In this document: piece after piece, positions 1,503 to 20,835 of the stretch | Numbering within the stretch: position 1 is the first letter of the stretch | Layout: each line of letters begins with the position of its first letter | Origin: a virus | DNA: 25,639 bases | Direction: 5' to 3' (one strand) | IMG/VR virus record: IMGVR_UViG_3300038409_000019 | Coordinates: 1-25,639 of that record | Notes under the pieces: model-generated | The model's database searches: none | Seen by the model: only the letters and a program-made list of their open reading frames with translations | What the model was told of the DNA's origin: nothing | Program-made: the position numbers and the translations under genes

Positions 1503-3263
<1,761 letters not shown>

Positions 3264-3267
<4 letters not shown>

Positions 3268-3554: not shown

Positions 3555-3566
3555 GGTAGGCGCTTA

Positions 3567-3803: not shown

Positions 3804-4068
3804 TGCTTTTGCGGCCACCAAAGCAGGTTGGTGGGAACTGTTTGACAAAGTAGATAGCATTGTTGAGATTGAACTCAAGCGGCTGTCAGAACTCAGCAAA
3901 GAAGATGCTGATGAAATGGTGGTTATCTGTCTGGGTATTCCACTGTTTGGCGGGCCGCATCTCAACGACACGCGCGAATCTTTGATTGCCGCGCTTCAGA
4001 ATGCCAAGCAACAGATTGCCGACATTCGTCTGCTTTGCCAAGAGACGATGGCGGCATTGCCAGATTAG
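3790..4068 (+). CDS. Hypothetical helical protein, 92 aa
   Basis: Unrecognised. Start ATG 3790 has GAAGG about 8 bases upstream and lies inside the end of the previous gene. The sequence is mostly alpha-helical with alternating charged and hydrophobic residues (VEIELKRLSELSKEDADEM, and LIAALQNAKQQIADIRLLC), suggesting a helical bundle or oligomer. The DUF4406 gene begins one base after its stop, so the two are probably co-translated. No known family is claimed. Confidence 0.58.
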   Translation: MSTADAFAATKAGWWELFDKVDSIVEIELKRLSELSKEDADEMVVICLGIPLFGGPHLNDTRESLIAALQNAKQQIADIRLLCQETMAALPD

Positions 4069-4069
4069 A

Positions 4070-4426: not shown

Positions 4427-5085
4427 TGCCAGTAGGATTAGATGATGCAGAAATCCTTAATAATCAAGTATTAAATGCCTTGACTACTATGAGTCATCTG
4501 CATAGTGAAATACAGGCATGGATACGAGTCTTGCGGGAAGCACAAACAATCAGGCCGAGGCCGTTCTCGATGCGTGACCCGCGCTGGTATGCCGCGCGGT
4601 TGGGAACGTCAAACCAAACCATCGGCTTGGCTGGCTGCTTGATAACGTCCATTGCAAGTATGTTGTGCGACATCGGGTATGAGACGACTCCCGCTGCATT
4701 CAATGACTGGCTTGTCGCAAATGGCGGTTATGCCAGCGGCAACGAGTTTGTTTGGGCCAGCATTGAAAAGTTAGGCGCGAAAGTTGTCAATGACATTGAA
4801 TACTCTGTCGGGCATCCGACCGATGAAGAAATTGCATTCCTGCGCTCGTTTATGCGGAACGGTTATCACATCATCGTCAAAGTTGACATTGACTTGGCAA
4901 CTCGCAAGGTGGACCAGCATTATGTTCGCCTACTCGCCATTGACGAAAACAACGCGAATGCCGACATCATGGATCCGTGGCCGCGTCCAGACGAGGGCAA
5001 CTTGATTCGGTTGTGTCCGCGCTATGGCAAGACTCTAAAATATGCGCTGTGGCGGGCGGTGATTTATTCAGCGGCGGGTGCTTAA
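4426..5085 (+). CDS. C39-like (papain-fold) cysteine peptidase, candidate lysin
   Basis: A 219-residue protein whose residues 48-210 follow the peptidase C39-like fold: RDPRWY at the domain start, Gln64 in TSNQTIG for the oxyanion hole, catalytic Cys71 in GLAGCLITSIASML, His165 in DQHYVRLLAI and Asp183 in IMDPW. The N-terminal 45 residues are a separate helix. Phages use this fold in cell-wall-cleaving enzymes and virion-associated peptidases. There is no signal peptide or wall-binding module. The start is fixed by the TAATG overlap with the DUF4406 gene and by AAAGG upstream. With the hydrolase-like gene 1.2 kb upstream it could form a lysis cassette. Fold and catalytic residues are good; substrate is inference. 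Confidence 0.75.
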   Translation: MPVGLDDAEILNNQVLNALTTMSHLHSEIQAWIRVLREAQTIRPRPFSMRDPRWYAARLGTSNQTIGLAGCLITSIASMLCDIGYETTPAAFNDWLVANGGYASGNEFVWASIEKLGAKVVNDIEYSVGHPTDEEIAFLRSFMRNGYHIIVKVDIDLATRKVDQHYVRLLAIDENNANADIMDPWPRPDEGNLIRLCPRYGKTLKYALWRAVIYSAAGA

Positions 5086-5325
5086 ATGGCCAGACCCACA
5101 ACCATTAGCCGCATAGATATATTCAAGGCACTTACTCAAGTCGAGTCGTTGATGTCTGCGGACACTGCGAATCTGATTCGTTCATATATCATGTCGCTTG
5201 AGGCGAGTTGCGACCATATGATGGGCCTATTGGAGCGGGCCAACGCGCAAATTGCGACGCTTGAGGCGAAGCTGAAGGCGTGCGAGCTGGGAAGTGATGA
5301 CGATGGAATCGGCGGCGGCGGATGA
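5086..5325 (+). CDS. Coiled-coil hypothetical protein, 79 aa
   Basis: Begins directly after the stop of the C39-like peptidase gene with no spacer, so it is almost surely in the same transcript. Residues 40-70 form a heptad-like helix (MMGLLERANAQIATLEAKLK) and the tail is acidic then glycine-only (DDDGIGGGG). It could be a small accessory or oligomerisation protein of the neighbouring lysin; nothing in the sequence shows a specific role. Confidence 0.58.
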   Translation: MARPTTISRIDIFKALTQVESLMSADTANLIRSYIMSLEASCDHMMGLLERANAQIATLEAKLKACELGSDDDGIGGGG

Positions 5326-5384
5326 CATTTCATATGCGCCAGTTCGCATGGCATGACGAATGGACAATACACGAGGTAACTTGA
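5322..5384 (+). CDS. Possible micro-ORF, 20 aa
   Basis: ATG 5322 overlaps the stop of the coiled-coil gene as ATGA; the 20-codon frame (MTFHMRQFAWHDEWTIHEVT) ends five bases before the next start at 5389. Rich in aromatic residues and His. Support comes only from the overlap pattern and the otherwise empty gap. Confidence 0.3.
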   Translation: MTFHMRQFAWHDEWTIHEVT

Positions 5385-5388
5385 TTAT

Positions 5389-5610
5389 ATGAACAAAGAT
5401 GCGGTTAATATTCTTGCGGATTATCACAAGAAAATATTTGATGACAGAATTGAATCGCTTTATGAACAAGCACAACATGAACTTAATGGCGGACGATTCT
5501 ATGGAATTCCAATTGATGTAAATGATGCCCGACAACTGGCAGCGATCCTATATCAATTGTGGAAATTTAATGACGCTGGCATGTTGCATATTATAGGAAT
5601 TGCAGGATGA
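5389..5610 (+). CDS. Hypothetical protein, 73 aa
   Basis: Unrecognised soluble protein with a start at ATG 5389 and GAGGT about 11 bases upstream. Mostly helical (VNILADYHKKIFDDRIESLYEQAQ, then DARQLAAILYQLW). AT-richer than the flanking genes. Its stop overlaps the start of the following 50-codon gene as ATGA, supporting translation of both. No motif suggests a function. Confidence 0.58.
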   Translation: MNKDAVNILADYHKKIFDDRIESLYEQAQHELNGGRFYGIPIDVNDARQLAAILYQLWKFNDAGMLHIIGIAG

Positions 5611-5759
5611 ACTGGCGCCGCTTCGTCACTTGGCTGCATAGTTTGCTATGGCAACTATGGGGGCCGTTACCGCAGGGCGATGACGACTCGGCGCGAATCA
5701 CGCTGCTCGGTGCGGGCGGCGAGATGACGATGGTTGAGGGCGATGGGCATAAAACTTGA
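5607..5759 (+). CDS. Small protein, 50 aa, aromatic N-terminal helix
   Basis: ATG 5607 overlaps the preceding stop as ATGA and follows GCAGG. The first 20 residues (MNWRRFVTWLHSLLWQLWGP) form an amphipathic to hydrophobic Trp-rich helix, possibly membrane-associated but short and basic at the start; the rest is acidic and Gly-rich. The end overlaps the start of the ParB-methyltransferase gene by 17 bases. Coding is supported by the double overlap in an otherwise unexplained gap. It could be a small membrane-active peptide, but that is a guess. Confidence 0.5.
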   Translation: MNWRRFVTWLHSLLWQLWGPLPQGDDDSARITLLGAGGEMTMVEGDGHKT

Positions 5760-6855
5760 CAGAAACAATGCTCGCAAGCACTCGGAGCGCAACAAGAAAG
5801 CCATTCGCGCTTCTCTTGAGGCAGCCAAAGCCGCGCGGAGCATTGTGCTTGATTCTGGCGAGAATGTCCTAGCCGGCAATGGCGTGGCCGAGCAATGGGA
5901 GGCGATGGGCGGCAAGGTCAAGATTGTCGAGACGACGGGCGATGAGCTTGTGGCCGTGAAGCGCGTGGACGTTGCGCCGGACTCGCCACAGGCGCGGCAA
6001 ATCGCGGCGCTTGACAATCTAGTCGCGGACACTTCTGCTTTTGACTACGATGCCAACCGACTTCGCGCCGCTCTTGCAAACGACCCCGTGGCGGCGGCGA
6101 TTGCGCAGGAGGAGAAGGCGCTTCGGGATTTGCTGCGGGGTAATGGGAACGGGGCGCATGATGCGGAACCGCAGATGGATAGGGCGGCGGAACTGCAAGA
6201 GAAATGGCGAACATCACTGGGACAGACATGGAAACTCGGCGAACATACTCTATATTGTGGGCCTGCTAGTGAGGCGAAGATAAAATGTAATCTTGCTATA
6301 TTTGATCCGCCATTTGATTGGGGAACAGACCAGCAACAAACCGCTGTGAGTTGGGCCATTTGGGAAACTGCTATTTTGATGGGGCTTGAAAAATGTATGC
6401 CGCTTGCTGTTCGGGGTGACTTTTGGCATTGGTGGATTTGGGATGCTGGTATGAATCGTTTTGGCGGGCGCGGGCATAATCCGGTATCAGGATGCTGCAT
6501 GGTGCTATTGTTCGGTGAACACCATTGGTATGAATCGCAGGGCCTATCAATTTTAGATAAGTATGGTATAGAACATTATGAATGGCCGACGCAAGTTGTC
6601 AAAATTCAAGACCATTTAGCAGGGCGTGAATACAAGCATCAAAAACCTATTCCGCTTACTGATTATATCGTTGCGCTTTATAGTGGCGAAGGTGAAACTA
6701 TGGGGGATTTATTTGCGGGCAGTGGGAGTTTTTTGATTTCGGCTCAAAACTTGAATCGTCAATACTGCGGCGCAGAAATTTTGCCAGAGAATTGTGCTGT
6801 GATATTGGACAGATGGTCTAGGGCTTTTCCAGATATGCCGCCAAGTCTCGCTTGA
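5743..6855 (+). CDS. ParB-like / DNA methyltransferase fusion (beta-class motif order)
   Basis: A 370-residue fusion. Residues 8-75 resemble the ParB/sulfiredoxin-like N-terminal domain found ahead of phage methylases (NNARKHSERN...IVLDSGENVLAGNG). A linker leads to LGQTWKLGEHTLYCG (159-173), the usual opening of the methylase part. Motif IV is DPPF (188-191) and motif I, FAGSGSF, follows at 324-330, so the order is IV then I, as in beta-class N6-adenine or N4-cytosine enzymes; HQKPIPL (299-305) fits motif X. ATG 5743 is preferred over TTG 5734 and has GAGG just upstream. The methylase half is clearly AT-richer than the ParB-like half, which may reflect a recent domain join. Probably protects or marks phage DNA. 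Confidence 0.82.
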   Translation: MGIKLDRNNARKHSERNKKAIRASLEAAKAARSIVLDSGENVLAGNGVAEQWEAMGGKVKIVETTGDELVAVKRVDVAPDSPQARQIAALDNLVADTSAFDYDANRLRAALANDPVAAAIAQEEKALRDLLRGNGNGAHDAEPQMDRAAELQEKWRTSLGQTWKLGEHTLYCGPASEAKIKCNLAIFDPPFDWGTDQQQTAVSWAIWETAILMGLEKCMPLAVRGDFWHWWIWDAGMNRFGGRGHNPVSGCCMVLLFGEHHWYESQGLSILDKYGIEHYEWPTQVVKIQDHLAGREYKHQKPIPLTDYIVALYSGEGETMGDLFAGSGSFLISAQNLNRQYCGAEILPENCAVILDRWSRAFPDMPPSLA

Positions 6856-7048
6856 TGTAGTATTGCCGGTCAATCGAATTAGCCGACTTGACCGCATCAG
6901 GATTTGTTTGGCGACGATAGCCAAATGACTCTAATAATTGAATAGTAGCTCGACCATATTCGCGCCAATTGATGGCCTGAGCATGTGGGTGATAGTTGAG
7001 TTTGCCGATATAATATCACGGATCTGGTCTAGTGTCAACAAAGTGTAA
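6818..7048 (-). pseudogene. Decayed 3' fragment of a gene, resembling the C-terminus of phage radical-SAM proteins
   Basis: On the minus strand, 65 open codons run from 7015 to a stop at 6818-6820. The product reads like real protein: IGKLNYHPHAQAINW near the start and DRQYYIKRDLAAYLEKP at the end, as in the C-terminal region of phage radical-SAM proteins. There is no start codon. The same frame continues upstream through a TGA (7016-7018) with FVDTRPDP and then meets a TAA (7049-7051), so the 5' part is lost or damaged. It overlaps the end of the methylase gene by 38 bases, tail to tail. The family is from memory of such sequences, not a search. Confidence 0.45.
7010..7038 (-). promoter_or_regulatory. 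Sigma70-like promoter candidate, leftward
   Basis: On the minus strand a perfect -35 (TTGACA, 7038-7033) is separated by 17 bases from TATTAT (7015-7010). Transcription would run left into the decayed gene and antisense to the end of the ParB-methyltransferase gene. On the + strand the same spot has a perfect TATAAT (7009-7014) but no good -35; it could serve the terminase operon starting at 7083. Confidence 0.38.
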
Positions 7049-7082
7049 TTATTTTGTTATGTAATGCAGCCGATTGTAAACA

Positions 7083-7517
7083 ATGGGAAAAGATAATCGC
7101 GGGAGCAATCCCAAATCACTCGAAAATCTGCAAAAAGGACGCGCAAAGGGATTGAAACGCCGCAATCACAATGCGGCTGGCGGCACTGGCAACTCCTGGC
7201 GCGAAATCCTTGACGCGGTTGGCTCGCTCGACTTGACGGAAAGCAACTGGGCGACGCTGGCCGAGGCTGGTATCACCCGCGAATGGTGCAAAGAACACGG
7301 CATCACGCAGTACCGCAAGCTGCTCGTGGCGTTCATGGCGTATATGAACGCGCCCGACTCGCCCGCGCTGTTCCGCGAGATCATGGAGCGCACAGAGCCG
7401 ATAGACCGTTGGCTGCTTAGCATTGACTTGACTAAATTGACGCTTGAACAACTGGAAAGACTTAGAAATGACGAAGATCCGCGTTCCGTTATCCTTTCGG
7501 GCAGCGGCGGAGATTGA
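7083..7517 (+). CDS. terS: Probable terminase small subunit
   Basis: A 144-residue protein directly before, and overlapping by 50 bases, the large terminase gene, the usual place for TerS, which recognises phage DNA and regulates packaging. The N-terminus is basic and Asn/Gly-rich (NPKSLENLQKGRAKGLKRRN), as in DNA-binding tails of phage terminase-associated proteins. Residues 100-130 (LVAFMAYMNAPDSPALFREIMERTEPI) resemble the helix around the RteG/RidG turn of small terminases. No clear Shine-Dalgarno precedes ATG 7083. The call rests on position and general resemblance; a generic DNA-binding protein is the alternative. Confidence 0.6.
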   Translation: MGKDNRGSNPKSLENLQKGRAKGLKRRNHNAAGGTGNSWREILDAVGSLDLTESNWATLAEAGITREWCKEHGITQYRKLLVAFMAYMNAPDSPALFREIMERTEPIDRWLLSIDLTKLTLEQLERLRNDEDPRSVILSGSGGD

Positions 7518-8811
7518 GCGTCGTCGTCGGCTGAACGCGGGTGGGCAGGCGGAGACGGAGAAGCGACTGCTTGAGTTTCGAGGCGCAGCACAGGAACTGC
7601 AATCGCTTGATGTGCCAGAGTGGATAATCAGCGGGCCTAGTGAAACTGGCAAGACTTTTGCGGTTCTATGGCGGATACACCAGATATGCATGAAACAGCC
7701 AGCCCAGGGCGCGATAGTTCGCAAGCAATTGGCAGACGTTTACGGAACGGTACTACAGACCTTTCAAAAGAAAATAATCTCGCCCAGCGATGGCATCGCG
7801 ATCTATGGTGGCGAGAAACCAGAATGGTTTGATTACCCATCTGGTGCGCGCTTATGGATCGGTGGCATGGACAAGCCAGGCAAGGTGCTCTCTGGCGAAC
7901 GCGACTTCGTGTTCTTCAACCAAGCCGAAGAAGGGAAACTAGAGGACTGGGAGACTATCACGACGCGCACGACAGGTCGGGCCGGCAATATCGCGCATCC
8001 ATTCACCTGCGGCGATTGCAATCCATCAAGCAGTCGGCATTGGATTCGAGAGCGCGCCAAAGTTGGCAGTCTGGTTCTGTTGCAGTCATACCATAAGGAC
8101 AATCCGGCATTATTTGATGGCTCTGGCGTGCTGACCGAGCAAGGCCACCGGACGATGGAAACGCTAGAGCGGCTGACTGGTTCGCGGCGCAAACGGCTGC
8201 TGGAAGGTGAATGGTATTCGGCTGAAGGCTTGGTATATGACGGGTTCAACGCCGAAATCCATGTCCAGCATCGAGACCCGCGAGAGTTCCGCGCCTGGAT
8301 GTTCGGCGTTGACGAAGGATACACGAATCCGGCAGTTGTCCTAGCCATTGGCATTGACGGCGATTTGCGCGTTCACATCGCGGAAGAGTTCTATGAGCGC
8401 GGCAAGTTGCAATCTGAAGTGGTTCAGGCCGCGCTAGACATGGCGCGGCGGCATGGGCAGCCGCATATTGTTGCGGTTGATGCGAGCGCGGCGGGCCTGA
8501 TTGCCGATTTGCGTGACAATGGGCTGCCCGCCGAGGCGATTCGGGGCAGGGTGCAGGATGGGATCGCTCTGGTGCAGAACTCGCTAAAGGTGTGCGGCGA
8601 TGGCCGACCGCGCCTGACGGTTGAGCCGACCTGTGTCAATGTCGTCAACGAATTTGAGAGTTACATTTGGAAGTCGGGCAAGGATGAGCCAGTCAAAGAG
8701 AATGACCATAGTCTTGATGCTCTGCGTTATGCTATACTATGGTTGCTGGCTGGCGAGGTCGAGCAGTCTGAGATTATTTATTCGCCCGTGAAAATCGGGC
8801 CGGATTGGTAA
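7468..8811 (+). CDS. terL: Terminase large subunit (packaging ATPase and nuclease)
   Basis: A 447-residue TerL, of normal length. Walker A is GPSETGKT (residues 56-63). The Walker-B strand is DFVFFNQAEE (146-155), where Asn-Gln stands in place of the classic Asp-Glu but the following Glu pair is kept, followed by the coupling region WETITTRTTG (161-170). The RNase H-like nuclease shows three acidic positions: D282 in FGVDEGYTNP, D338 in VAVDAS and D417 in HSLDALRY. ATG 7468 has GGAAAG nine bases upstream; the TTG at 7444 lacks this. It cleaves concatemeric DNA and drives it through the portal encoded about 130 bases downstream. Confidence 0.95.
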   Translation: MTKIRVPLSFRAAAEIERRRRLNAGGQAETEKRLLEFRGAAQELQSLDVPEWIISGPSETGKTFAVLWRIHQICMKQPAQGAIVRKQLADVYGTVLQTFQKKIISPSDGIAIYGGEKPEWFDYPSGARLWIGGMDKPGKVLSGERDFVFFNQAEEGKLEDWETITTRTTGRAGNIAHPFTCGDCNPSSSRHWIRERAKVGSLVLLQSYHKDNPALFDGSGVLTEQGHRTMETLERLTGSRRKRLLEGEWYSAEGLVYDGFNAEIHVQHRDPREFRAWMFGVDEGYTNPAVVLAIGIDGDLRVHIAEEFYERGKLQSEVVQAALDMARRHGQPHIVAVDASAAGLIADLRDNGLPAEAIRGRVQDGIALVQNSLKVCGDGRPRLTVEPTCVNVVNEFESYIWKSGKDEPVKENDHSLDALRYAILWLLAGEVEQSEIIYSPVKIGPDW

Positions 8812-8813
8812 CA

Positions 8814-8941
8814 ATGGAAAAGAGGGGGGGTTTGTCGTTGGTCTTGCTTTGGGGCTTGGCATTGCATTTGTCATTGTCTGTCTACTACTGCTTGGTACTG
8901 CAAACGATATAAAAACACTGAATAAAAGTAAGCAAGGATAA
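8814..8941 (+). CDS. Small one-helix membrane protein, reading frame interrupted at a G7 run
   Basis: As read, ATG 8814 gives 32 codons (stop 8910-8912) beginning MEKRGG. At the run of seven Gs (8824-8830), one additional G would shift translation into a frame encoding FVVGLALGLGIAFVIVC, LLLLGTAND and a charged tail, about 42 residues ending at 8939-8941, just before the portal's ribosome site. That second frame looks much more like a genuine transmembrane protein (small-residue pattern, polar tail) and uses the whole gap between terminase and portal. Either the homopolymer is miscounted, or slippage is used, or the gene is damaged. A holin-like or virion-linked role is possible but not shown. 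Confidence 0.5.
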
Positions 8942-8944
8942 CAA

Positions 8945-10690
8945 ATGTCATTACGTAGCCGATTCGCACAACTTCTCATGGGCGACGAAATCCGCCGCAT
9001 GAATCAATCCTTCGCTTTATTGCGTGAGGCATATGAGGTCGGCCCATACCATATGCCGCCTGAACAACTTGTTGCACAACTCAAAGAGATTGACCCGTGG
9101 ATGCTGAGTGACTTGGTCGTACAGATGCAGTACGACATCATTGGCGGCCTGGGTGCGATAGGTTATTCGGACGCCGAGCGCATCCGAGCCGTAGACGAAT
9201 CGCTGCGAATGTTCCGCTACGATGTCATCACAGAGTTCGGTTACGGCCTATGGACAAACTTCGGATTTGGTAACGGCGTCAAGGTCGTGCCCAATGACGA
9301 CAAGGCGAAAGAGGTATGGTATGAATTCTGGAAAGCTGACCGCAACGCTGCCGTCCTGGGCGATGACTCCATACACGAACTGTCTGACACGGTGCTTTCT
9401 CAGGGCGAATTGTTCCTGATTGTCTATTGCAGTGATCAGGACGGCGAGGCGACCATTCGCGTGCTGGGCGATGCCGAGCACCCTGGCACGAAGCAGATCA
9501 CTGAAATCGTCTACAATCCCGATGACGAGAGTATGCCGCTATACTACAAGCGCGAATGGACGGATAGTGCGGGCGTCGGGCAGACTTTGTACTATGCCGA
9601 CTGGCAGGCATGGTTGAGCGATAATTTAGACGAGAGCACCCTCAGCGCGGGCAAGGTTCTCGACAAGGCCAAATTGCCGATCGGCGCAAAGAAGGCAGAA
9701 GAGACCAAGCCAGGCACCGTTGTCATCATGTTCCGCATTGCCCGCAACCGCAAGGGCAGCAAGCGCGGCTGGCCGCTGATGACGGCGGGCGCGCCGTGGT
9801 CTCGCAGCCACAAGAAATTCCGCGAGGATAGGGCGACTGTAGCAGCCGCTTTTGCGATGTTCGTTCATAAACTGAATGTCAAGGGTGGCTCAAGGGCCGT
9901 GAGCGCACTCCGCACTCAGCTTGCCTCGGCATTCCAAACTAACCCAAATGCTTCATGCGATACCAATCCACCGCCGACGGCTGGCTCGACATGGATTCAA
10001 AACGAAGCAGCAGATCTAACCCGCCTGCCGATGGGTACTGGTGCAAGTGACGCGAAAGAGGACGGCGATGCACTGCTGAGGATGGCCGGCTTGGGCGTCG
10101 GAATTTACCCACAATGGCTCGGCGTCGGCGATACCAATGCACTTGCGACGGCCAAGTCAATGGAGCAGCCGATGTCTCGCCAGTTCAGCCGCTATCAAAC
10201 ATTCTGGGCGGCGCAGTGGCGAAAGCTGGTTATCATCGTCCTGAGCATGGCGGAGAAATACGACGGCAAAACATTTGAGGACAAGACGGCGGAGGTCTCA
10301 ACCGACAAACTAGTACAAACCGATCTCGGCGGCATCGTGACAGCCATCGCGCCACTCATCATGCAGACTATCGCGGCCATCGAAAAGAGCCAAGTTGAGG
10401 GCGCGCCGCTTGCGTCCATCTTGGGCGATGTGTGGGCGCTGGCGCTCGACGCGCTTGGAATTGAGGACATCGTGGCAGTGTCGCCGCAGGCATTCGGAGC
10501 ACAGCCGATCCAGGCAGCGGAAAGCGGCGCGAGTCATGTGGCCCAGCAGGTCAATCTTATCTGCCCGCTATGCGGAAATGACACGGCGCTGTTTTATCCT
10601 GGGCATGGCGATGTTGTGGTGTGCGAGAGTTGTGGGCAGACATATGATAGGTCAGAGGCGGTCAACACACTAGCACTAGAGCCAACTTGA
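8945..10690 (+). CDS. Portal protein with C-terminal zinc ribbon
   Basis: A 581-residue protein following TerL and preceded by AAGGA six bases before ATG 8945. The centre and C-terminal half show portal features: a long acidic/hydrophobic wing region, then GVGIYPQWLGVGDTNALATA (about 385-404), which fits the portal pattern of a Pro, LG and LATA segment before the long helix with QTFWAAQW. The dodecameric portal forms the DNA entry pore at one capsid vertex. Unusual is the last 45 residues: C540-x2-C543 and C560-x2-C563 with a spacer of 16, a typical zinc ribbon (CPLCGND...CESCGQTYD), which most portals lack. Confidence 0.88.
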   Translation: MSLRSRFAQLLMGDEIRRMNQSFALLREAYEVGPYHMPPEQLVAQLKEIDPWMLSDLVVQMQYDIIGGLGAIGYSDAERIRAVDESLRMFRYDVITEFGYGLWTNFGFGNGVKVVPNDDKAKEVWYEFWKADRNAAVLGDDSIHELSDTVLSQGELFLIVYCSDQDGEATIRVLGDAEHPGTKQITEIVYNPDDESMPLYYKREWTDSAGVGQTLYYADWQAWLSDNLDESTLSAGKVLDKAKLPIGAKKAEETKPGTVVIMFRIARNRKGSKRGWPLMTAGAPWSRSHKKFREDRATVAAAFAMFVHKLNVKGGSRAVSALRTQLASAFQTNPNASCDTNPPPTAGSTWIQNEAADLTRLPMGTGASDAKEDGDALLRMAGLGVGIYPQWLGVGDTNALATAKSMEQPMSRQFSRYQTFWAAQWRKLVIIVLSMAEKYDGKTFEDKTAEVSTDKLVQTDLGGIVTAIAPLIMQTIAAIEKSQVEGAPLASILGDVWALALDALGIEDIVAVSPQAFGAQPIQAAESGASHVAQQVNLICPLCGNDTALFYPGHGDVVVCESCGQTYDRSEAVNTLALEPT

Positions 10691-10708
10691 TAGAAATGAG
10701 GGGAATAA

Positions 10709-11257
10709 ATGAGCAGTTACACTGATGCGCTGCTGATTTGCAACGATGGATTGCATATCTCGGAACTCAATAGCATTCTGAGGGTTTGTGACATTTCTAC
10801 TTTTGAGAGATTGGGAAATAGCGAGTTCTTTGAAATGTCAGATAACTATCTCAATCTATCCGAGTTGACCGATGCTATCAACTCAATTCAGTGGGATGCG
10901 CGCACCATCCAATTATTTGTGCGAGACGAGCATGATGACAAGTTTACAGAGATTGCATTGCATCCAAATCAATTGCCGCCATTGGTTGAGTTGTTCGTTT
11001 CAGATGGCGAGCATGATAATAATAACGTTCTGATTGGAGAATGGAAATTTGAGCGTGATAAGTCAAAGATATTTCGGCCTGCCATAGAGGTGGCACAATC
11101 AATTTGCAGTGATAGCGATGTATTGCCGCTAGTTGTCCACGCCATTGTAACGAGTCGAATATCCAGAAAGGCATTTGATGAATTTGTCACGGGCTTGTTC
11201 AAGGATGAACGTGCGGCATTGCAACCATATATGTCGCGTTTCACTTGGGTCAATTGA
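10709..11257 (+). CDS. Hypothetical protein, 182 aa, AT-rich insert after the portal
   Basis: Unrecognised. Strong ribosome site GAGGGGA before ATG 10709. The product is acidic and soluble, with no membrane segment, coiled coil or Cys motif; helices alternate with strands (NILRVCDISTFERLG-like segment, IQLFVRDEHDD, VLPLVVHAIVTSRIS). The gene is visibly AT-richer and codon-wise unlike the portal upstream and the minor head candidate downstream, suggesting later acquisition. It could be an accessory (moron) gene. Confidence 0.65.
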   Translation: MSSYTDALLICNDGLHISELNSILRVCDISTFERLGNSEFFEMSDNYLNLSELTDAINSIQWDARTIQLFVRDEHDDKFTEIALHPNQLPPLVELFVSDGEHDNNNVLIGEWKFERDKSKIFRPAIEVAQSICSDSDVLPLVVHAIVTSRISRKAFDEFVTGLFKDERAALQPYMSRFTWVN

Positions 11258-11268
11258 GTAGGAAAGCC

Positions 11269-11445
11269 ATGCCCATCCCATCTAAATCAGTTCGCCGCAA
11301 GCGACTTGACAAAGTAGCGCAGCGCAGAATTGGAAAAGTGACGCAGGCATGGATTGACAAAGCGGTCAAGGCCATTGCCGAGATTCCTGAGCCGACATTC
11401 AATCTGGCGCAGGCAAAGAGCGAGAATGCCGCGCGACCCGAATAG
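11269..11445 (+). CDS. Small basic protein, 58 aa
   Basis: ATG 11269 is preferred over TTG 11245 because AGGAAAG lies six bases upstream. The first half is strongly basic (KSVRRKRLDKVAQRRIGK), then an amphipathic helix (AWIDKAVKAIAEI). It overlaps the next gene, a possible minor head protein, by 20 bases. A nucleic-acid-binding or small capsid-associated role is conceivable; no family is recognised. Confidence 0.55.
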   Translation: MPIPSKSVRRKRLDKVAQRRIGKVTQAWIDKAVKAIAEIPEPTFNLAQAKSENAARPE

Positions 11446-12082
11446 CCTGACAGGGCGCATGACGCCCGTGCAATATACCGTGTGGAGTTATGGTCGGCTG
11501 GATGCAGCGGACGCGCAGCCCATGATAACGGAACTGACCGATGTGATGCGACTGGCATTCAACGGTGAACTGACCACGCTCAACTATGGCGTGGGCTGCT
11601 ATGCTAAGTGGGGCAACCTGACCAACTCGTCTATCCTGAACCAATTGCGGCAACTTGCGCGGACGGACGCAGCAAACATCGTCAACACATTCAACTATGA
11701 TTTGGCGGCAGCTATCATCCGAATCGGGCAGGCGAATCCGAGAGGGAATCAGAGTTACTATGCGGCGCATTTGCGGGATTGGCTGGTTCAGCGCAAAGAG
11801 GCGAAAGACTCACAAATCAAGCAGCACTCGCGGTTATTGGCAAGTTCGTTAGCACAGCGGCATTTCAAAGAGCACAATACGGGTTTATTGAAGAGGGCGC
11901 ACTTAGAACCGAAGAGTGCGGTATGTCCAATCTGTCAGGGATGGATAAGACGCGGTGAAGTTCCTGCATATGTGGCAGTGAGAAATCCGACCAATTTTCA
12001 TCCAAATTGCCCACATGAATGGGTCTACCAATCTAACAAAGTCGCGCCAGAGGCGTGCGGGGATTTGTGGAACGGAGAATGA
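11426..12082 (+). CDS. Putative minor head / head-morphogenesis protein with Cys/His motif
   Basis: A 218-residue helical protein two genes after the portal, where minor head proteins of the Mu gpF/SPP1 gp7 kind usually lie. Its C-terminus has the type of metal motif common in these proteins: C167-P-I-C170, then H192-P-N-C195-P-H-E-W (CPIC...FHPNCPHEW). The helical region (LTNSSILNQLRQLAR, DYDLAAAIIRIG and further) is consistent with the family but not decisive. ATG 11426 is chosen as the first Met after the overlap with the small basic gene; the TTG at 11354 would lie deep in that gene. Family assignment is an inference from motif and order. Confidence 0.55.
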   Translation: MPRDPNSLTGRMTPVQYTVWSYGRLDAADAQPMITELTDVMRLAFNGELTTLNYGVGCYAKWGNLTNSSILNQLRQLARTDAANIVNTFNYDLAAAIIRIGQANPRGNQSYYAAHLRDWLVQRKEAKDSQIKQHSRLLASSLAQRHFKEHNTGLLKRAHLEPKSAVCPICQGWIRRGEVPAYVAVRNPTNFHPNCPHEWVYQSNKVAPEACGDLWNGE

Positions 12083-12093
12083 GAGGGGAGAAC

Positions 12094-12288
12094 ATGACAC
12101 AGAAAATCTTATTGACCTGTGATCGTTGCGGGAGACAAGTGAAAGAAGATGAAGATTTGGATGGTTGGCTAAAAATCACGGTGCAAGTTTCATTGGCGGG
12201 GAAATGGATTGATTTCACAAAAATATATGGCAGTGATTTTTGTGGAATAGACTGCGTCCTTCAAATGCTCCAGAAGCATCAAGTCTAA
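12094..12288 (+). CDS. Small putative zinc-binding protein, 64 aa
   Basis: Start ATG 12094 has an excellent ribosome site (GAGAGGGGAG). Two Cys pairs, C9-x2-C12 (TCDRCG) and C50-x3-C54 (FCGIDC), frame a strand-rich middle, consistent with a single zinc ribbon or treble clef. First of a run of small genes between the putative head gene and the terminator at 14282. No function recognised. Confidence 0.65.
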   Translation: MTQKILLTCDRCGRQVKEDEDLDGWLKITVQVSLAGKWIDFTKIYGSDFCGIDCVLQMLQKHQV

Positions 12289-12289
12289 A

Positions 12290-12553
12290 ATGAACAAGTC
12301 GCCATTCTACATCGGCCAGCCGCACGACCATGTAATTTGGGTCTGCAAGAAAACGGGCCGCCGACGCGAATCACTGCGAATACTGGACAAAGATGGCAAA
12401 GTGATGGAACAGGGCGAAGTGAACTTGGCGGCAGACTTGACATTTCAGAGCACCTATCCTGATGTGATGCTGACATTCAAGCGCGGACGATTGGCGGACG
12501 GGACGGGCGCATTGTGCTATCGAATCGCGGAGATTGATGCAAGGTTGCCATGA
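12290..12553 (+). CDS. Hypothetical protein, 87 aa
   Basis: Starts one base after the previous stop. Strand-rich small protein (HVIWVCKKTGRR, DVMLTFKRGRLADGTGALCYRIAEID) that resembles a compact beta domain. No clear ribosome site, so coupling to the upstream gene is likely. Its stop overlaps the next start as ATGA. Function unknown. Confidence 0.6.
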   Translation: MNKSPFYIGQPHDHVIWVCKKTGRRRESLRILDKDGKVMEQGEVNLAADLTFQSTYPDVMLTFKRGRLADGTGALCYRIAEIDARLP

Positions 12554-12714
12554 ACATCGGACTATGGTTGAACATGACGAAGGCGCGATTACTTGCGCCA
12601 TTGTGGTATTGGAGACACAGGTATTTCAAATGTTCTGCCGGATATGACTGTGATTGGGTTTATCCATACGGATTTGTGCCAGAGGCAGGTTGTCCAGTGC
12701 ACGATCCAGATTGA
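12550..12714 (+). CDS. Small Cys-containing protein, 54 aa
   Basis: ATG 12550 overlaps the preceding stop as ATGA. The N-terminal 27 residues are basic and aromatic (LLAPLWYWRHRYFK), then C28, C34 and C48 with His in CSAGYDCDW and GCPVHDPD, suggesting a small metal-binding knot. Its stop (12712-12714) abuts the GAGGAGAGG ribosome site of the next gene. The overlaps and the clean gene order support it despite its size. Confidence 0.55.
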   Translation: MNIGLWLNMTKARLLAPLWYWRHRYFKCSAGYDCDWVYPYGFVPEAGCPVHDPD

Positions 12715-12725
12715 GGAGAGGCGAA

Positions 12726-12935
12726 ATGATGGTTGGTATCCCGCTTGGCAATGGGGCTATCATTCCAGTGGATTTTGATGACCTAGCAGCCTTAATAGAA
12801 TTCGGATTGCTGGAAGTCACAGAACGCGACGAAACCGGAAAGCCAATCGGATTGAAAATAACCCAAGACGGATATGACTGTGCGGAGCAGTTAGATAGTA
12901 AAGAAACGGGCGGGACAAATGATAACAAGGCATAA
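12726..12935 (+). CDS. Hypothetical protein, 69 aa
   Basis: Strong ribosome site GAGGAGAGG before ATG 12726 (a second ATG follows at once). The sequence IIPVDFDDLAALIEFGLLEVTERDETGKPIGLKITQDGYDC has the pattern of a small winged-helix-like or beta-hairpin protein: a helix (DDLAALIEFGLL) followed by a two-strand wing. This may be a DNA-binding regulator, but no firm match is claimed. Overlaps the next gene by 17 bases. Confidence 0.58.
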   Translation: MMVGIPLGNGAIIPVDFDDLAALIEFGLLEVTERDETGKPIGLKITQDGYDCAEQLDSKETGGTNDNKA

Positions 12936-13191
12936 TTTCATCAAGTCTGCATTGGCGGCGATTGGATTGCTACTTGTTCCGCGACTTAGTGCTATTCAAC
13001 AGAAACGGCAGGAAGGCGGATTTATTCCAAATGGCGAAAAACCTTTTATCCTTCATTATGACGGACTAGTAACTATATCTTCTAGTACAGCACGCGCTTT
13101 GGCAAAGTGTCGTTGTGTGCCGCGAATTTACATTATTAAAGAATGCAAGGTCAATGATGACGAACGTCATAACGACTGCGCCAATGTGTAA
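12919..13191 (+). CDS. Hypothetical protein, 90 aa, Tat/Sec-like N-terminus
   Basis: Starts within the previous gene at ATG 12919. The N-terminus (TRHNFIKSALAAIGLLLVP) has a basic start, an FIK, and a 12-residue hydrophobic core, as in phage proteins with a twin-arginine-like signal (RRxFIK), but the second Arg is His. A Cys pair (KCRCVP) and a C-terminus rich in Asp, His and Cys follow. The C-terminal codons lie in a short direct repeat shared with the end of the following gene. Could be exported; otherwise unrecognised. Confidence 0.52.
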   Translation: MITRHNFIKSALAAIGLLLVPRLSAIQQKRQEGGFIPNGEKPFILHYDGLVTISSSTARALAKCRCVPRIYIIKECKVNDDERHNDCANV

Positions 13192-13384
13192 TCACATAGT
13201 TGCATGGACTAGTCTAAGCAAAATTCCGTCACCCCGCATTATGCTATCGTATAAGTGCGGACAAAATGTATATTGCCCAACCTGCGGATTCGGATGGGGA
13301 GCATCCCCATGTTTATGCGATGGAATTTTACATAATCAAGATGAGTTGACCAATGACGACGCCAAATGTCACGACGACTGCGCC
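13152..13384 (+). repeat. Imperfect direct repeat across two gene junctions (13152-13182 and 13351-13384)
   Basis: The two copies share CAATGA, GACG, GTCA and ACGACTGCGCC in the same order, with a three-base gap. Each copy encodes the last residues of one gene (NDDERHNDCA; NDDAKCHDDCA) and, in another frame, the first residues of the next (MTNVITTAPM; MTTPNVTTTAPL). The gene at 13157-13390 lies between the copies, about 199 bases apart. Confidence 0.6.
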
Positions 13385-13390
13385 GCTTGA
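13157..13390 (+). CDS. Cys-rich hypothetical protein, 77 aa
   Basis: Eight Cys in 77 residues (C11, C34, C40, C43, C52, C54, C71, C75), with a zinc-ribbon-like core CPTCGFGWG and CLC. Starts near ATG 13157 (AAGG six bases upstream); ATG 13154 and 13184 are alternatives. It overlaps the previous gene by 35 bases and the next by 38, and it is flanked by two copies of a repeat that spans each stop/start junction. No family recognised. Confidence 0.52.
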   Translation: MTNVITTAPMCNHIVAWTSLSKIPSPRIMLSYKCGQNVYCPTCGFGWGASPCLCDGILHNQDELTNDDAKCHDDCAA

Positions 13391-13592
13391 CATTAGGGTA
13401 TATTCGGGTGTAGAATTGACTCAGGCTGAGTTGCTGCCGCTTACCCGCGCCGAGTGCGCGATAATCGAGGCGGTTCGGCAGGCGATTCAGACAGGTCGGA
13501 CCTGGATGCTTATCTTGGAAGGAAATGACGCCGGCACAAAGATTGTCGGAACTAAAGCGCCGAAGTGGGTAAGGTGGGATAGAAGTGAATAG
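13353..13592 (+). CDS. Hypothetical protein, 79 aa
   Basis: Start ATG 13353; the opening MTTPNVTTTAPL parallels MTNVITTAPM of the preceding gene because both starts lie in the repeated junction. The remainder (ELTQAELLPLTRAECAIIEAVRQAIQTG) is a helical segment, then strands with a Trp-rich end (WVRWDRSE). GC-richer than the two genes upstream. No function recognised. Confidence 0.58.
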   Translation: MTTPNVTTTAPLDIRVYSGVELTQAELLPLTRAECAIIEAVRQAIQTGRTWMLILEGNDAGTKIVGTKAPKWVRWDRSE

Positions 13593-13845
13593 CGATGACG
13601 AGTTCGGCGCTGACATTCTTGACCACGATGTTCAGTGGTCTTGGCGATATGAATTATCGCCGCTTGAGTTGACGATGACATGTTGGCGGCAAGCCATAAA
13701 AGTGATGTCCGAAGAGTTCCCGCTAATGGTTAGAAATGCAATCGCCAACGTCAATGCTTTTATCGCCGCACTGAATGAGTATTGCCTTTATCAGCGGAAC
13801 TTGCGCACCTATGAGTTCATGCGCAACGAGCGAGTAGGCATGTGA
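13585..13845 (+). CDS. Hypothetical helical protein, 86 aa (GTG start)
   Basis: Initiates at GTG 13585, overlapping the previous gene by 8 bases, with AAGGTG upstream; no other start codon covers the N-terminal 30 residues. Acidic N-terminus, then a long helix (VRNAIANVNAFIAALNEYCLYQ). Its last eleven residues, YEFMRNERVGM, recur almost unchanged at the end of the next gene. Unrecognised. Confidence 0.58.
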   Translation: MNSDDEFGADILDHDVQWSWRYELSPLELTMTCWRQAIKVMSEEFPLMVRNAIANVNAFIAALNEYCLYQRNLRTYEFMRNERVGM

Positions 13846-14042
13846 AAAATGGCGAGGTGGGAAGCAAAATGAGAACACCTCAGGATGATTCAATTAGATG
13901 CCCGCACTGTAGCAAATGGTTCTTGTTTTTGGGTGTTGTCCCAAAGTATTGTCCGGGCTGTGGTTATTTCTGGCTATGGAACATCAAAGATTTTCATTAT
14001 CTTTATGAATTCATGCGCGGCGAGCAAGTAGGCATGTGAAAA
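13810..14042 (+). repeat. Direct repeat across two gene junctions (13810-13848 and 14004-14042)
   Basis: Two 39-base copies differ at four positions. Each carries the end of one gene (YEFMR-x-E-x-VGM, stop) and the GTGA start of the next, so both genes end and both following genes begin in the same sequence. The copies are 194 bases apart and flank the single zinc-ribbon gene. Confidence 0.8.
13842..14039 (+). CDS. Small zinc-ribbon protein, 65 aa
   Basis: GTG 13842 overlaps the previous stop as GTGA; ATG 13869, with GAGGTGG upstream, is an alternative giving 56 residues. A clear zinc ribbon is present: C20-x2-C23 (CPHC) and C37-x2-C40 (CPGC), with aromatic residues between. The C-terminus YEFMRGEQVGM matches that of the preceding gene. 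It lies between the two copies of a 39-base repeat. Likely a small metal-stabilised accessory protein. Confidence 0.6.
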   Translation: MKNGEVGSKMRTPQDDSIRCPHCSKWFLFLGVVPKYCPGCGYFWLWNIKDFHYLYEFMRGEQVGM

Positions 14043-14242
14043 TTATCAAGAATGGTTGTGAATTAAGATTGGTTGCGGGACTTGACACTGATGGCATCGC
14101 CAAATTGTTTTTGTCTGATGGATTGGGTTTGTGCCAACCTGTGCGGCACAAGGACTGGCTTGAAGTCTTAGACAAGTTTCAGGCCAGCCCAGGCGAACTT
14201 CTTGATGTGCGGCTCGGAAGAATAGTATTGACGCCCACATAA
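14036..14242 (+). CDS. Hypothetical protein, 68 aa (GTG start)
   Basis: Starts at GTG 14036 with a GTGA overlap inside the second repeat copy; no other start is available before residue 60. The product (GLDTDGIAKLFLSDGLGLCQPVRHKDWLEVLDKFQ) looks like a small strand-and-helix protein. It is the last gene before the terminator at 14282, so it ends the accessory operon. Function unknown. Confidence 0.6.
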   Translation: MKIIKNGCELRLVAGLDTDGIAKLFLSDGLGLCQPVRHKDWLEVLDKFQASPGELLDVRLGRIVLTPT

Positions 14243-14281
14243 TTTTATTGTACTAATACAACTAAATATCGGCTCACTATC

Positions 14282-14324
14282 AGAGCGGCCCCTGAATCAG
14301 GTTCAGGTGGCCGCTCTTTTTATT
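14282..14324 (+). terminator. Rho-independent terminator
   Basis: A nine-pair GC-rich stem (AGAGCGGCC with GGCCGCTCT) extended past one bulged T (14308) by six more pairs (CCTGAA with TTCAGG), a five-base loop, and a T-rich run (14317 onward). It closes the operon of small accessory genes 40 bases after the last stop. Confidence 0.9.
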
Positions 14325-14348
14325 TAACGAAAACGCATGGGAGTGAAC

Positions 14349-14819
14349 ATGGGAATGCCAAAACCACTCAACGAAGTGTGGGGAGTAGTCAATCCGATTA
14401 CGGTGCGGGCCATCGCGGCCTTACCTGGCGGCGGAGCATACGATGCAGCGCCTACCCCGTTCAGCGTGGCTAGCCTCAGCTATGTAACCTTGTACTTTCA
14501 GTATATCCGAGGTGGGGCAGGCGGCTCGTTCGGCTTTCGCATTGACATCTCTCCATTCTCCGCCGATCAACTCGTATTTGAGAACTGGTACAGAACTGCG
14601 CTTTATCAGGCGGGCGTCTTGGCTGCCGGCGCGGACGTAGCGAGCGCGATTCAGCGGGAGGCCATAACGTACCAAGCGACGGCGGGAGCAGCCATTGAAA
14701 CATTCGTCTATGGCCCAATCGAGATACTTGGAACAGTCGAGCGAATCCGCATCGCCTGCGCCGAAATCGGGGCCGTTGCCACTCCTGGCACATGCGGAAT
14801 CGTGGCGGTGATGGTGTAG
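14349..14819 (+). CDS. Putative virion protein, 156 aa
   Basis: Unrecognised. ATG 14349 is preferred over ATG 14337 because GGAG lies five bases upstream of it. The product is strand-rich, Gly/Ala-rich and charge-poor (YVTLYFQYIRGGAGGSFGFRID, then ALYQAGVLAAGADVAS), typical of phage structural beta proteins. It is the first gene after the terminator and lies three bases ahead of the DUF1566 adhesin gene, so it may be a partner or base for that protein. Structural role is inferred from composition and context. Confidence 0.55.
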   Translation: MGMPKPLNEVWGVVNPITVRAIAALPGGGAYDAAPTPFSVASLSYVTLYFQYIRGGAGGSFGFRIDISPFSADQLVFENWYRTALYQAGVLAAGADVASAIQREAITYQATAGAAIETFVYGPIEILGTVERIRIACAEIGAVATPGTCGIVAVMV

Positions 14820-14821
14820 CT

Positions 14822-15943
14822 ATGCCGACCCAAATGGATTTGAGGCTAACGAACAAGCGCATCGGGCTGACGAACCTCGTCGAGTACGTGCGCGGCCTCC
14901 TGCTCAAGACTGGGCAAACCACGTGCTACCACGTGGGCGACGATGGCGACTATGAGCCTGGCATATCAAAAAGCTACACGGTGCTGAATGCAGGCCAATA
15001 TGCAGGCACATCCAATATAGACGTGCCACACTATGCCAACAATGGCATCAGTTTCGTTGCACCGAATACAGTCAATGATGCTGGCGCGGGTCTCGTCACG
15101 TTTCTGAACACGGACAAGGTTGTCATCCGTGGCAGTGCATTGAACGATGGTGTTTTCGATGTACTGGCGGGTGGCGTAGCTGGTTCTTTCACAACAGTTC
15201 AGAACACCATCGTCAACGAGGGCGCTGGCCCATATGTCTCTATTTGCAAACGGGCGGCACATAGCAATAATTGTGTGCTAGACAACCGCACGGGAATAAT
15301 GTGGTCGCGCTATTCATCAAGCGCAGAACGGGTCGGCCCGACCTCGAATGGTCTACTAAATTGGTATGATGCCGCAACGACATTTACCCTCCATCCAGCG
15401 GCGGCGGATTTGCAGATGATCCCGCCCAGCACGCTGCGGGTTGTTGGCGGCGCGGCAGAGTTGCAGCGTTATCATGCGGGAGATGTACTAGATTGTGCGG
15501 GTTTCGCCAATGCTGTCAATAATCTTCAGGGATATAGAGCCACAAGTATAACGGTAAATGGGGCCGATCTAGATATTACTTTATGGACATGCAATAACAC
15601 GCTGATAGCTGAGGCGGCGGCAGGAGCGCGTTCTATCTCGTTGGTGTGTCGCTCGATTTTTGGATATGCAGCGGCGGCGACGGCGGCAACGTTGGCGGGC
15701 TATTCAGATTGGCGAGTTCCTAACTATGTAACCCTGATTTCAATAATGAGGAATGAAGCCCCGTCCAATGCGCCTGATGCTGCTGTCTTTCCTGGCTGGT
15801 CCACAGCCAACTTCTTTTGGACTAGTAGTGTTAGAACAAGTCTAGTTGCAAATATGCTGACGCTGAGTTATGCATATTTTGCTTCTGGCAATGCCGCACA
15901 AAATTCAACTTATCTTACTGCGCTTGTTCGCAGCGGCCCTTAA
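14822..15943 (+). CDS. DUF1566-type adhesin (C-type-lectin-like C-terminus)
   Basis: A 373-residue protein. The C-terminal part shows the order of DUF1566 motifs: LDNRTGIMWSRY (153-164), then GYSDWRVPNYVTL (293-305), FFWTSS (331-336) and ALVRSG (367-372) in place of the usual VRCVR. These domains form C-type-lectin-like folds used in surface binding, and the family is a frequent target of diversity-generating retroelements. The spacer between the first two motifs is longer than usual. Residues 40-150 carry Gly/Asn-rich repeats that may form a beta-rich stem. ATG 14822 lies three bases after the previous stop. A GC-rich palindrome begins four bases after its stop. Likely a receptor-binding virion protein. 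Confidence 0.7.
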   Translation: MPTQMDLRLTNKRIGLTNLVEYVRGLLLKTGQTTCYHVGDDGDYEPGISKSYTVLNAGQYAGTSNIDVPHYANNGISFVAPNTVNDAGAGLVTFLNTDKVVIRGSALNDGVFDVLAGGVAGSFTTVQNTIVNEGAGPYVSICKRAAHSNNCVLDNRTGIMWSRYSSSAERVGPTSNGLLNWYDAATTFTLHPAAADLQMIPPSTLRVVGGAAELQRYHAGDVLDCAGFANAVNNLQGYRATSITVNGADLDITLWTCNNTLIAEAAAGARSISLVCRSIFGYAAAATAATLAGYSDWRVPNYVTLISIMRNEAPSNAPDAAVFPGWSTANFFWTSSVRTSLVANMLTLSYAYFASGNAAQNSTYLTALVRSGP

Positions 15944-15946
15944 ATG

Positions 15947-15962
15947 GCGGGGGCAGCCCCGC
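15947..15962 (+). other. GC-rich palindrome just after the DUF1566 gene
   Basis: GCGGGG and CCCCGC pair perfectly around the four-base loop GCAG. No T run follows, so it is a poor terminator. Size and place match the cruciform-forming palindromes known downstream of some diversity-generating retroelement target genes, although the loop is not the GRNA type. Confidence 0.5.
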
Positions 15963-15988
15963 AGATTTGATGGGCGACGAGATGGGCG

Positions 15989-16933
15989 ATGCTGCATAGG
16001 GACTGGGTAGTTGGCAGAACTGGACACGTTGCGGAACACAATGAAATCTCTGCGCGATTGGTAAATGTAGCAGATTTTATTGAGGCAGGACTGACCATGC
16101 AGCAGGCAATAGATTATTCTGCTGAAACTGGCACAGCGGCATGGTTTCGGCAAGGCACTTATCAAATAAACACTGGGTTGAATATTGCGCGCAACTTTGT
16201 GCGTTTGCGCGGAGATGGTTGCCCGACTATTAGACTAGATGATGAAGGCGATACATTAACAATTCATGACTGTGAGGGCGTTGAAATTCGTGGCCTGCAT
16301 TTGGTTTCAAGCAACGGCAATGGATTAGTGTTGAATAATGCGCCGAGAACCATATTGGAAAATGTTCGCTCAACAGATACAGGCAAATCCTGCTTGGTGG
16401 CGCAAGATTCTTGGTGGCTCCAGGCCGATAATTGCATCTTTGCTGATCCGAAAGCGAATTACTCGACCAGTTCCCTTGTGGCAATGCACAATTCTGAATT
16501 TCGGCATTGTCGGTTTGCCGGCGGGACAATTGGAGTCTTGGCGGACGCATCATACAACTTACATTTTGATGCCTGCGATTTCTCAGGATGCAATGTAGGG
16601 CTTCTTGATTTTTCGGCGGGCATGGTGCTGACCTGCCCTTATGTCGAAGCCTGTGACATTGGTGTGCAGATTGGAGATGAGAATCACTTCGTGCCAGCCA
16701 TAGCCATCAAGGGTGGATACTTTAATATTCAGTGTGGAAATGGGCGGACTGGAATCAAAATTGTCAAGGGCGCGGCCATTGAATTGGGTGGCGGTATCTA
16801 TTTTATGGGCGACGATCCGATCCACACAAGTATCGGGATTCACATTTTGAATGACCAAATCAATGCAGATATTGCGATGGGCAAAAATTACTATGCTACA
16901 GTATCAGAGCATGTCCGAGACGAGCGGAATTGA
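15989..16933 (+). CDS. Right-handed beta-helix protein (tailspike/pectate-lyase fold)
   Basis: A 314-residue protein with repeated short strands and turns typical of parallel beta-helices: FVRLRGDGCPTIRLDD, LTIHDCEGVEIRGLHLVSSNGNGLVL, RTILENVRSTDTG, ADNCIF, FRHCRFAGG and HFDACDFSGC, with Asn/Cys ladders at regular spacing. The N-terminus (DWVVGRTGHVAEHNEIS) resembles the virion-attachment segment of phage tail proteins. There is no obvious catalytic triad, so binding or depolymerase activity cannot be told apart. It is AT-richer than the protease gene downstream. ATG 15989 has no strong ribosome site. Confidence 0.72.
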   Translation: MLHRDWVVGRTGHVAEHNEISARLVNVADFIEAGLTMQQAIDYSAETGTAAWFRQGTYQINTGLNIARNFVRLRGDGCPTIRLDDEGDTLTIHDCEGVEIRGLHLVSSNGNGLVLNNAPRTILENVRSTDTGKSCLVAQDSWWLQADNCIFADPKANYSTSSLVAMHNSEFRHCRFAGGTIGVLADASYNLHFDACDFSGCNVGLLDFSAGMVLTCPYVEACDIGVQIGDENHFVPAIAIKGGYFNIQCGNGRTGIKIVKGAAIELGGGIYFMGDDPIHTSIGIHILNDQINADIAMGKNYYATVSEHVRDERN

Positions 16934-19509: not shown

Positions 19510-19576
19510 GATATAGTTTTACAATCGCATAAGGCAGTCTGATTTCAGAACGCCGCTTTTCTGTGGCAGTTGCAAG

Positions 19577-19604
19577 AACGCCGCAGAGAAGCGGCGTTTT
19601 TTAT
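19577..19604 (+). terminator. Rho-independent terminator with a competing upstream arm
   Basis: AACGCCGC and GCGGCGTT form an eight-pair stem around the loop AGAGAA, followed by a run of Ts. A second copy of AACGCCGC at 19549-19556 can pair with the same right arm and extend to ten pairs with TT/AA, so two structures compete. The cement gene's ribosome site lies only 15 bases downstream. Confidence 0.82.
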
Positions 19605-19628
19605 TTGCGTCACGAAAGGAGGCTAAGT

Positions 19629-20222
19629 ATGCCTAACGACTTTTACAAAAATCCGAATTGGCAGGGGTCAAGCGGCCCCATCATCACGCGTCAGTTTGCC
19701 TTGAGCGACCTGTGGCCCGTGGGCGCTGCGGCGGGCAAGGACGAACTCGCGGACGGCCTGCATCCTGTCGTCGCAGTCGGCCCAGAGGCGAATCGGCCCG
19801 CCAACATCACTGGTGTCGTGGTGTCATTCAATTCAGCGGCAAATCTGGCGCAGTTGAATGTTGCCGAAAAGGTCATCGTCAAAAACTATGTGGCGAACGT
19901 GCTGACCTACGCGGGCGGAAATCCATCCACATTTGACCAATCAATGTCCATCGGTGAACCGGTCTATGTGGATGACAGCACCGACTTGGCCGCTGGCGTC
20001 ACGCTCTCACGCTCGCCGCTCAACGAGGGCAACCAGGCCAACCCGCTCGCTGGCTATCTGATGTATTGCCAAGACGAATACGTGGACAGCGGCGTGGGCG
20101 GGCCGAATTCAGTCGCGTCGTGGCCCAAGACGCTTACTAACGAGCTGCATCAGGATGAGGTCTATTGCATCCTGCTCGTGAACGATTATGGAAACGCGCA
20201 TTATCCGCCTCGCGGTGTGTGA
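19629..20222 (+). CDS. Putative capsid cement/decoration protein, copy 1
   Basis: A 197-residue beta-rich protein with a strong ribosome site (AAAGGAGG). It is homologous along its whole length to the next gene: both share SSGPII-RQFA, LWP-G, ADGLHPV, VKNYVAN/VRNYVAN, IGEPVYVDDS, GVTLSRSP, NPLAGYL-YCQDE and WPK-LTNELH. The central GEPVYVDD and place just before the major capsid gene suggest a capsid-binding cement or decoration protein, but a known family is not certain. It follows a terminator, so its promoter or read-through must act at that point. Confidence 0.65.
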   Translation: MPNDFYKNPNWQGSSGPIITRQFALSDLWPVGAAAGKDELADGLHPVVAVGPEANRPANITGVVVSFNSAANLAQLNVAEKVIVKNYVANVLTYAGGNPSTFDQSMSIGEPVYVDDSTDLAAGVTLSRSPLNEGNQANPLAGYLMYCQDEYVDSGVGGPNSVASWPKTLTNELHQDEVYCILLVNDYGNAHYPPRGV

Positions 20223-20241: not shown

Positions 20242-20835
20242 ATGCCTGACGACTTCAAAAGTGGGAGTGATTGGGAGCAATCCAGCGGCCCGATTATCGC
20301 GCGCCAATTTGCGGCGGCTGATTTGTGGCCGCACGGCTTGAACTCTGAATCGGATGGCGCTGGCGACAAGGATATTCTAGCCGACGGCCTGCATCCAGTT
20401 CTTGCCATCGGCGCGGACAAGACCAATCGGCCTCGCCATTTGACTGGCGTCGTGATGACCTACACCAACGCCAACTTGGTGACGCTGAATCTGGCCGACA
20501 AGTTCGTCGTCCGCAACTACGTCGCCAATATCGTGAGCTATGGCCCGACTGTCTACGATCAGTCTATGGCAATCGGCGAACCGGTCTATGTTGACGATAG
20601 CACGGCCCTATCTTCGGGCGTGACGCTATCGCGTTCGCCCAACAACAACCTTGGCGCGGCAAACCCGCTGGCTGGCTATCTGTACTACTGCCAGGACGAA
20701 TTCTACGACAGCGGAGTCGGCGGCGCGAATGCAGCCGCTGTGTGGCCAAAAGTGCTCACCAATGAACTTCACGAGAATGAATACTGCATCATGCTCGTGA
20801 ATGACTTCGGCGACGCCGTGGCGATTCAGATTTAG
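20242..20835 (+). CDS. Putative capsid cement/decoration protein, copy 2
   Basis: Paralogue of the preceding gene, the same length (197 residues), after only 19 bases that include a perfect AGGAGGT site. The main differences are a longer, charged insert near residue 35 (SESDGAGDKD) and a changed N-terminal segment; the conserved core (IGEPVYVDDS, YYCQDEFYDSGVGGAN) is retained. Both ORFs are intact, with no decay, so both are likely used, perhaps as two different subunits or in mixed assemblies. It lies 37 bases before the major capsid gene. Confidence 0.65.
   Translation: MPDDFKSGSDWEQSSGPIIARQFAAADLWPHGLNSESDGAGDKDILADGLHPVLAIGADKTNRPRHLTGVVMTYTNANLVTLNLADKFVVRNYVANIVSYGPTVYDQSMAIGEPVYVDDSTALSSGVTLSRSPNNNLGAANPLAGYLYYCQDEFYDSGVGGANAAAVWPKVLTNELHENEYCIMLVNDFGDAVAIQI

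Follow-up and report, generated by a model that had tools for sequence, protein, structure and literature searches.

Flanking a single small zinc-ribbon gene, a pair of direct repeats in this viral genome is probably a scar left when a gene was gained where two genes overlap and the insertion duplicated their junction. The window, by which we mean the whole 25,639-base virus record analysed, belongs to a tailed phage that encodes a terminase, a portal, a protease-like protein and a capsid, and the repeats lie in the stretch of small genes that leads from the portal to the protease. The two copies, at positions 13810–13848 and 14004–14042 of the plus strand, are each 39 bases long, are spaced 194 bases apart and agree at 35 of 39 positions, differing at repeat positions 6, 16, 17 and 23; an earlier note on this DNA had their coordinates, length and number of differences exactly right. 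Each copy takes in the 11 final codons of one gene together with the TGA that ends it and the GTG, overlapping that stop, at which the next gene begins, with ...GGC ATG TGA and an overlapping GTG AAA start in both, which bears out the note's description of repeats that each span a stop/start junction with GTGA. Copy 1 encodes the end of gene A (YEFMRNERVGM, then the stop) and continues through the GTGA overlap as GTGAAAA, while copy 2 encodes the end of the zinc-ribbon gene (YEFMRGEQVGM, then the stop) and continues through the same overlap into the start of gene C. Three of the four differences change an amino acid.

The similarity is confined to the junction. Ungapped identity between the copies is 17–18 of 20 bases inside the repeat and 1–5 of 20 to its left, with a sharp border where only 1 of 20 matches immediately upstream; to the right it falls through 9, 8, 5 and 4 of 20 and reaches background within a few tens of bases. 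The DNA identity runs on beyond the stop codon, and the longest exact match between the copies is 16 bases. With a match scored +1 and a mismatch −2, the ungapped repeat scores 27; none of 30 Markov-shuffled versions of the window scored above 17. Using the ORF calls of this analysis as gene boundaries, the pair ranks first (junction-pair score 58) of 528 junction pairs in the window and also scores highest when 2,425 junction pairs from 0.72 Mb of phage loci are compared; for 90-base pairs picked at random from the window, a score of 30 came up about 5 times in 100,000. Just two copies were found in the window, and its other junctions lack the element. Over 56 bases that include their flanks, the copies have folding energies of −13.3 and −10.4 kcal/mol, values that come without a shuffle control and from copies that are coding.

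The zinc-ribbon gene (CPHC...CPGC; 13842–14039, plus strand) encodes 65 residues from the GTG at 13842 or 56 from an ATG at 13869, matches zinc-ribbon families only below threshold and has its last 11 codons in copy 2. The Shine–Dalgarno sequence predicted for the ATG is stronger than that for the GTG (−7.9 versus −4.9 kcal/mol, the former computed one base off, at 13870), so the gene probably starts at 13869 rather than within the repeat. The 155 bases between the copies (13849–14003, plus strand, 43% GC), the putative inserted segment, would therefore carry their own translation start, with the Shine–Dalgarno sequence GAGGTGGGAAG. Upstream, gene A (13585–13845, plus strand) encodes 86 residues, belongs to no family and contributes its last 11 codons and stop to most of copy 1. 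Downstream, gene C (14036–14242, plus strand) encodes 68 residues, also without a family, and starts by a 4-base overlap. When we joined the copies in silico, removing 194 bases, genes A (86 residues) and C (68 residues) remained intact, with no change in gene A beyond the residues in which the two copies differ. This result agrees with the earlier claim that recombination between the repeats would remove the zinc-ribbon gene and leave valid gene ends on both sides. Just 3′ of gene C, a G+C-rich inverted repeat followed by a T run (14281–14320) resembles an intrinsic terminator when read by eye. Elsewhere in the window, a protein with an Lcl_C domain is encoded between the portal and protease genes (14792–15943), an odd place for a tail- or surface-type domain, and one frame at 5734–6855 has both ParB-like and DNA methyltransferase family matches, suggesting a fusion.

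Many genes in the window overlap, by 4 to 38 bases at the junctions examined, and an insertion can therefore leave both neighbours functional only if it duplicates the junction. In the mechanism that we propose, a foreign segment of about 155 bases, bringing its own ribosome-binding site and start codon, would have been joined on its left after the end of gene A and on its right to a second copy of that end, supplied by a different copy of this junction. As a result, the 39 bases of the junction would be duplicated: the new zinc-ribbon frame would run into the last 11 codons of gene A and borrow its stop, and gene C would retain its original start context. Unless an insertion copies the junction, the end of the upstream gene and the start of the downstream one are parted, and selection would therefore leave events of this kind. 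The gain could be undone if the copies recombined by homology or if slippage occurred between them. We infer the gain itself, its direction (a gain rather than a pending loss) and the recombination route, since an empty-site relative of the exact site was not found and the sole close relative is nearly identical.

That relative, L009, is 99.96% identical over window positions 1–16805, with six differences, none of them in the element, and carries the same zinc-ribbon gene in the same arrangement. It was also the sole other match to a relaxed repeat pattern among the sequences searched. Viral and genome contigs were scanned with gene A, the gene at 14337, the portal, terminase and capsid genes and two repeat patterns, and none proved to be an empty-site relative; nor was a replaced gene seen at the zinc-ribbon junction in any sequence searched. 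Phage tblastn searches with the gene A and zinc-ribbon proteins returned nothing convincing, and so pointed to no donor for the insert; a match to the zinc-ribbon protein in L017 (E 4e-4, in the loci set) was set aside, as it covers 41 residues 5′ of the terminase and outside the listed ORFs of at least 40 codons. Searches with terminase, portal and capsid led to the distant relatives L007, L014, L017, L089 and L090, and each distant group has different small genes in the portal-to-protease interval. In L089 and L090, as in the window, there are duplicated genes 5′ of the capsid gene, lying in tandem here at 19563–20222 and 20242–20835.

The likeness of the two gene ends could instead reflect a shared functional element, a tail peptide or a ribosome-binding or coupling signal under selection in both genes, and each copy does hold the sequence around the start of the gene that follows (predicted Shine–Dalgarno energies of −4.9 and −4.5 kcal/mol for the starts within the copies). 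We consider this very unlikely: the identity covers two reading frames and a stop, the differences mostly alter the protein and the window's other junctions do without the element. The substitution pattern led us to reject a conserved peptide in particular, and the identity past the stop together with the nonsynonymous differences fits recent copying of DNA better than protein constraint. The scenario of a tandem duplication of a longer segment containing gene A, the middle of which was then replaced or decayed to leave the shared end, fares only slightly better and is itself improbable. It would likewise copy the end of gene A, and tandem duplicates are present in this phage (19563–20835), but the left border of the repeat is sharp and the zinc-ribbon gene bears no trace of gene A.

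The earlier note had read the repeats as a natural swap site for small accessory genes. An active site of this kind, at which the repeats are kept for recombination and small genes are exchanged repeatedly, would account for a repeat geometry that permits exact gene removal, for the highly variable small-gene content of related intervals and for a second junction pair around a neighbouring small gene. It is nevertheless an unlikely explanation in our assessment, given that no sequence searched has an alternative gene at the zinc-ribbon junction, that the window's two junction pairs are unrelated in sequence and so offer no common site, and that the longest exact match is so short. Removal of the gene by recombination between the copies is plausible despite this, though 16 bases is short for RecA-type recombination, and nothing suggests a dedicated exchange device at the repeats. 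Part of the note's proposal thus stands, in that removal is exact in silico and the principle is seen in L089/L090 and in the Island3/Brujita phages described below. The comparison of relatives proposed in the note gave one with the same gene and none with the site empty or refilled. With no variant found at the site and a match this short, "swap site" is too strong a term, and it overstates what is probably a one-time insertion scar.

A filled and an empty state at a duplicated junction do occur together in the region of L089 and L090 that is equivalent to the window's, rather than at the window's own site, as judged from their alignment. These two phages are 81–93% identical in the aligned pieces around the syntenic interval, where L089 has 990 extra bases with three small genes, one of them with cysteine pairs and one HAD phosphatase-like by eye. 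The extra bases lie between copies of a 21-base junction that match at 19 of 21 positions (CGCCTCCTGGACGCGGCGGAG and CGGCTGCTGGACGCGGCGGAG), and L090 has a single copy at the overlapping end and start of two genes. After the L089 copies were joined in silico, 518 of 602 alignment columns matched L090, a level of divergence usual for these two phages. In the right-hand copy of L089, what was the end of the old gene persists as a remnant of 16 codons before the next gene starts, a feature that suits insertion with junction duplication. We did not count as a junction case a 222-base difference in L089 (7193–7416), which falls inside a gene of the protease region. Separately, about 959 bases within a head-morphogenesis-like gene of L090 (approximately 5198–6156) are missing in L089, have no flanking duplication and look intein-like by eye.

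Among the other phage loci, L076 has a perfect 29/29 repeat across a stop/start junction (1872–1900 and 2135–2163, minus strand) that flanks one 86-codon frame; the upstream copy is apparently read in another frame, which counts against peptide conservation. Perfect 94-base repeats in L022 (6450–6543 and 7420–7513) were set aside, since they lie 5′ of minus-strand gene starts and are more like regulatory repeats, perhaps one control segment repeated between small genes. Within the same 0.72 Mb, similarity was more frequent between neighbouring junctions that bound a single gene than between other nearby junction pairs (7/455 versus 8/1970, Fisher P = 0.013); the set compared takes in the pair from the window itself as well as tandem paralogues, and perhaps ribosome-binding sites held in common. 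This excess is suggestive and may lend modest support to junction duplication.

A second such pair within the window surrounds the neighbouring gene Y (13157–13390, plus strand), a small zinc-ribbon-like gene (C..CPTC..CLC) without a family. Its two overlapping junctions, with the end of gene X (13157–13191, plus strand) and with the start of gene Z (13353–13390, plus strand), are 35 and 38 bases long and resemble one another, with a score of 33 that ranks second of the 528 junction pairs. The junction pairs of gene Y and of the zinc-ribbon gene are unrelated to each other in sequence, and the weaker gene Y pair is probably an older example of the same kind of event.

The phenomenon is already described in mycobacteriophages. 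In Island3 (Cluster I; Pope et al. 2011), gene 68, which Brujita lacks, terminates with a duplicate of the gene 67 end; whether a deletion or an acquisition was responsible could not be decided by the authors (PMC3029335). We re-derived this comparison from the records, and found that the end of gp68 matches that of gp67 at 53 of 58 bases and that Brujita has just one copy, which spans both pieces of the alignment. As in the window, one small gene (85 residues there) has C-terminal residues and DNA that repeat the end of the upstream gene, and joining the direct copies at the gene junction (about 50–58 bp) gives the empty arrangement. In the window too, direct repeats spanning a gene end and a gene start flank one small gene, whose C terminus copies that of the upstream gene at the DNA level (11 codons, 35/39 bases across the stop), and both neighbours survive the joining. 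Island3 differs in having an empty-site relative, the remainder of which is about 99% identical, whereas none was found for the window's site, and we do not suggest that the genes themselves are related. The segment of genes 43–46 in LRRHood (Cluster C1) lies between 29 bp repeats of which relatives have one copy (PMC3029335). It resembles the window in placing accessory genes between short direct repeats near gene ends, but its 1.35 kb, four genes and repressor gene bring it closer to the L089 case.

Junction homology in the form of short conserved boundary sequences has reportedly been proposed as a source of recombination points for mosaicism in lambdoid phages (work attributed to Susskind and Botstein, 1978, and Clark et al., 2001, and cited in PMC3029335); those sequences are common to different phages, whereas the window's copies sit within one genome. 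In T4-type phages, PeSLs are cassettes of a promoter plus a stem-loop between genes. These mobile regulatory cassettes (work attributed to Arbiol et al., 2010, and to Comeau et al., 2014) recur at junctions and have reportedly been proposed to bring about the shuffling of small genes. PeSL elements are intergenic, whereas the window's repeat is coding, and recurrence at several junctions was not seen within the window.

The repeats described here are a further clean example of the mycobacteriophage phenomenon in an unrelated, uncultured phage group, and provide a sequence-level footprint of how a very small gene can be acquired without breaking packed, overlapping neighbours. More tentatively, junction duplication could be a general signature of phage gene insertion between overlapping genes, such that surviving gains carry flanking repeats that date and delimit them, a possibility about which we remain doubtful. 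If it is true, the window would hold two generations of gains, an older one at 13157–13390 and a younger one at 13842–14039. Should such duplications be common, a single genome would be enough to map gene gains and to date them relative to one another, with no need for an empty-site relative.
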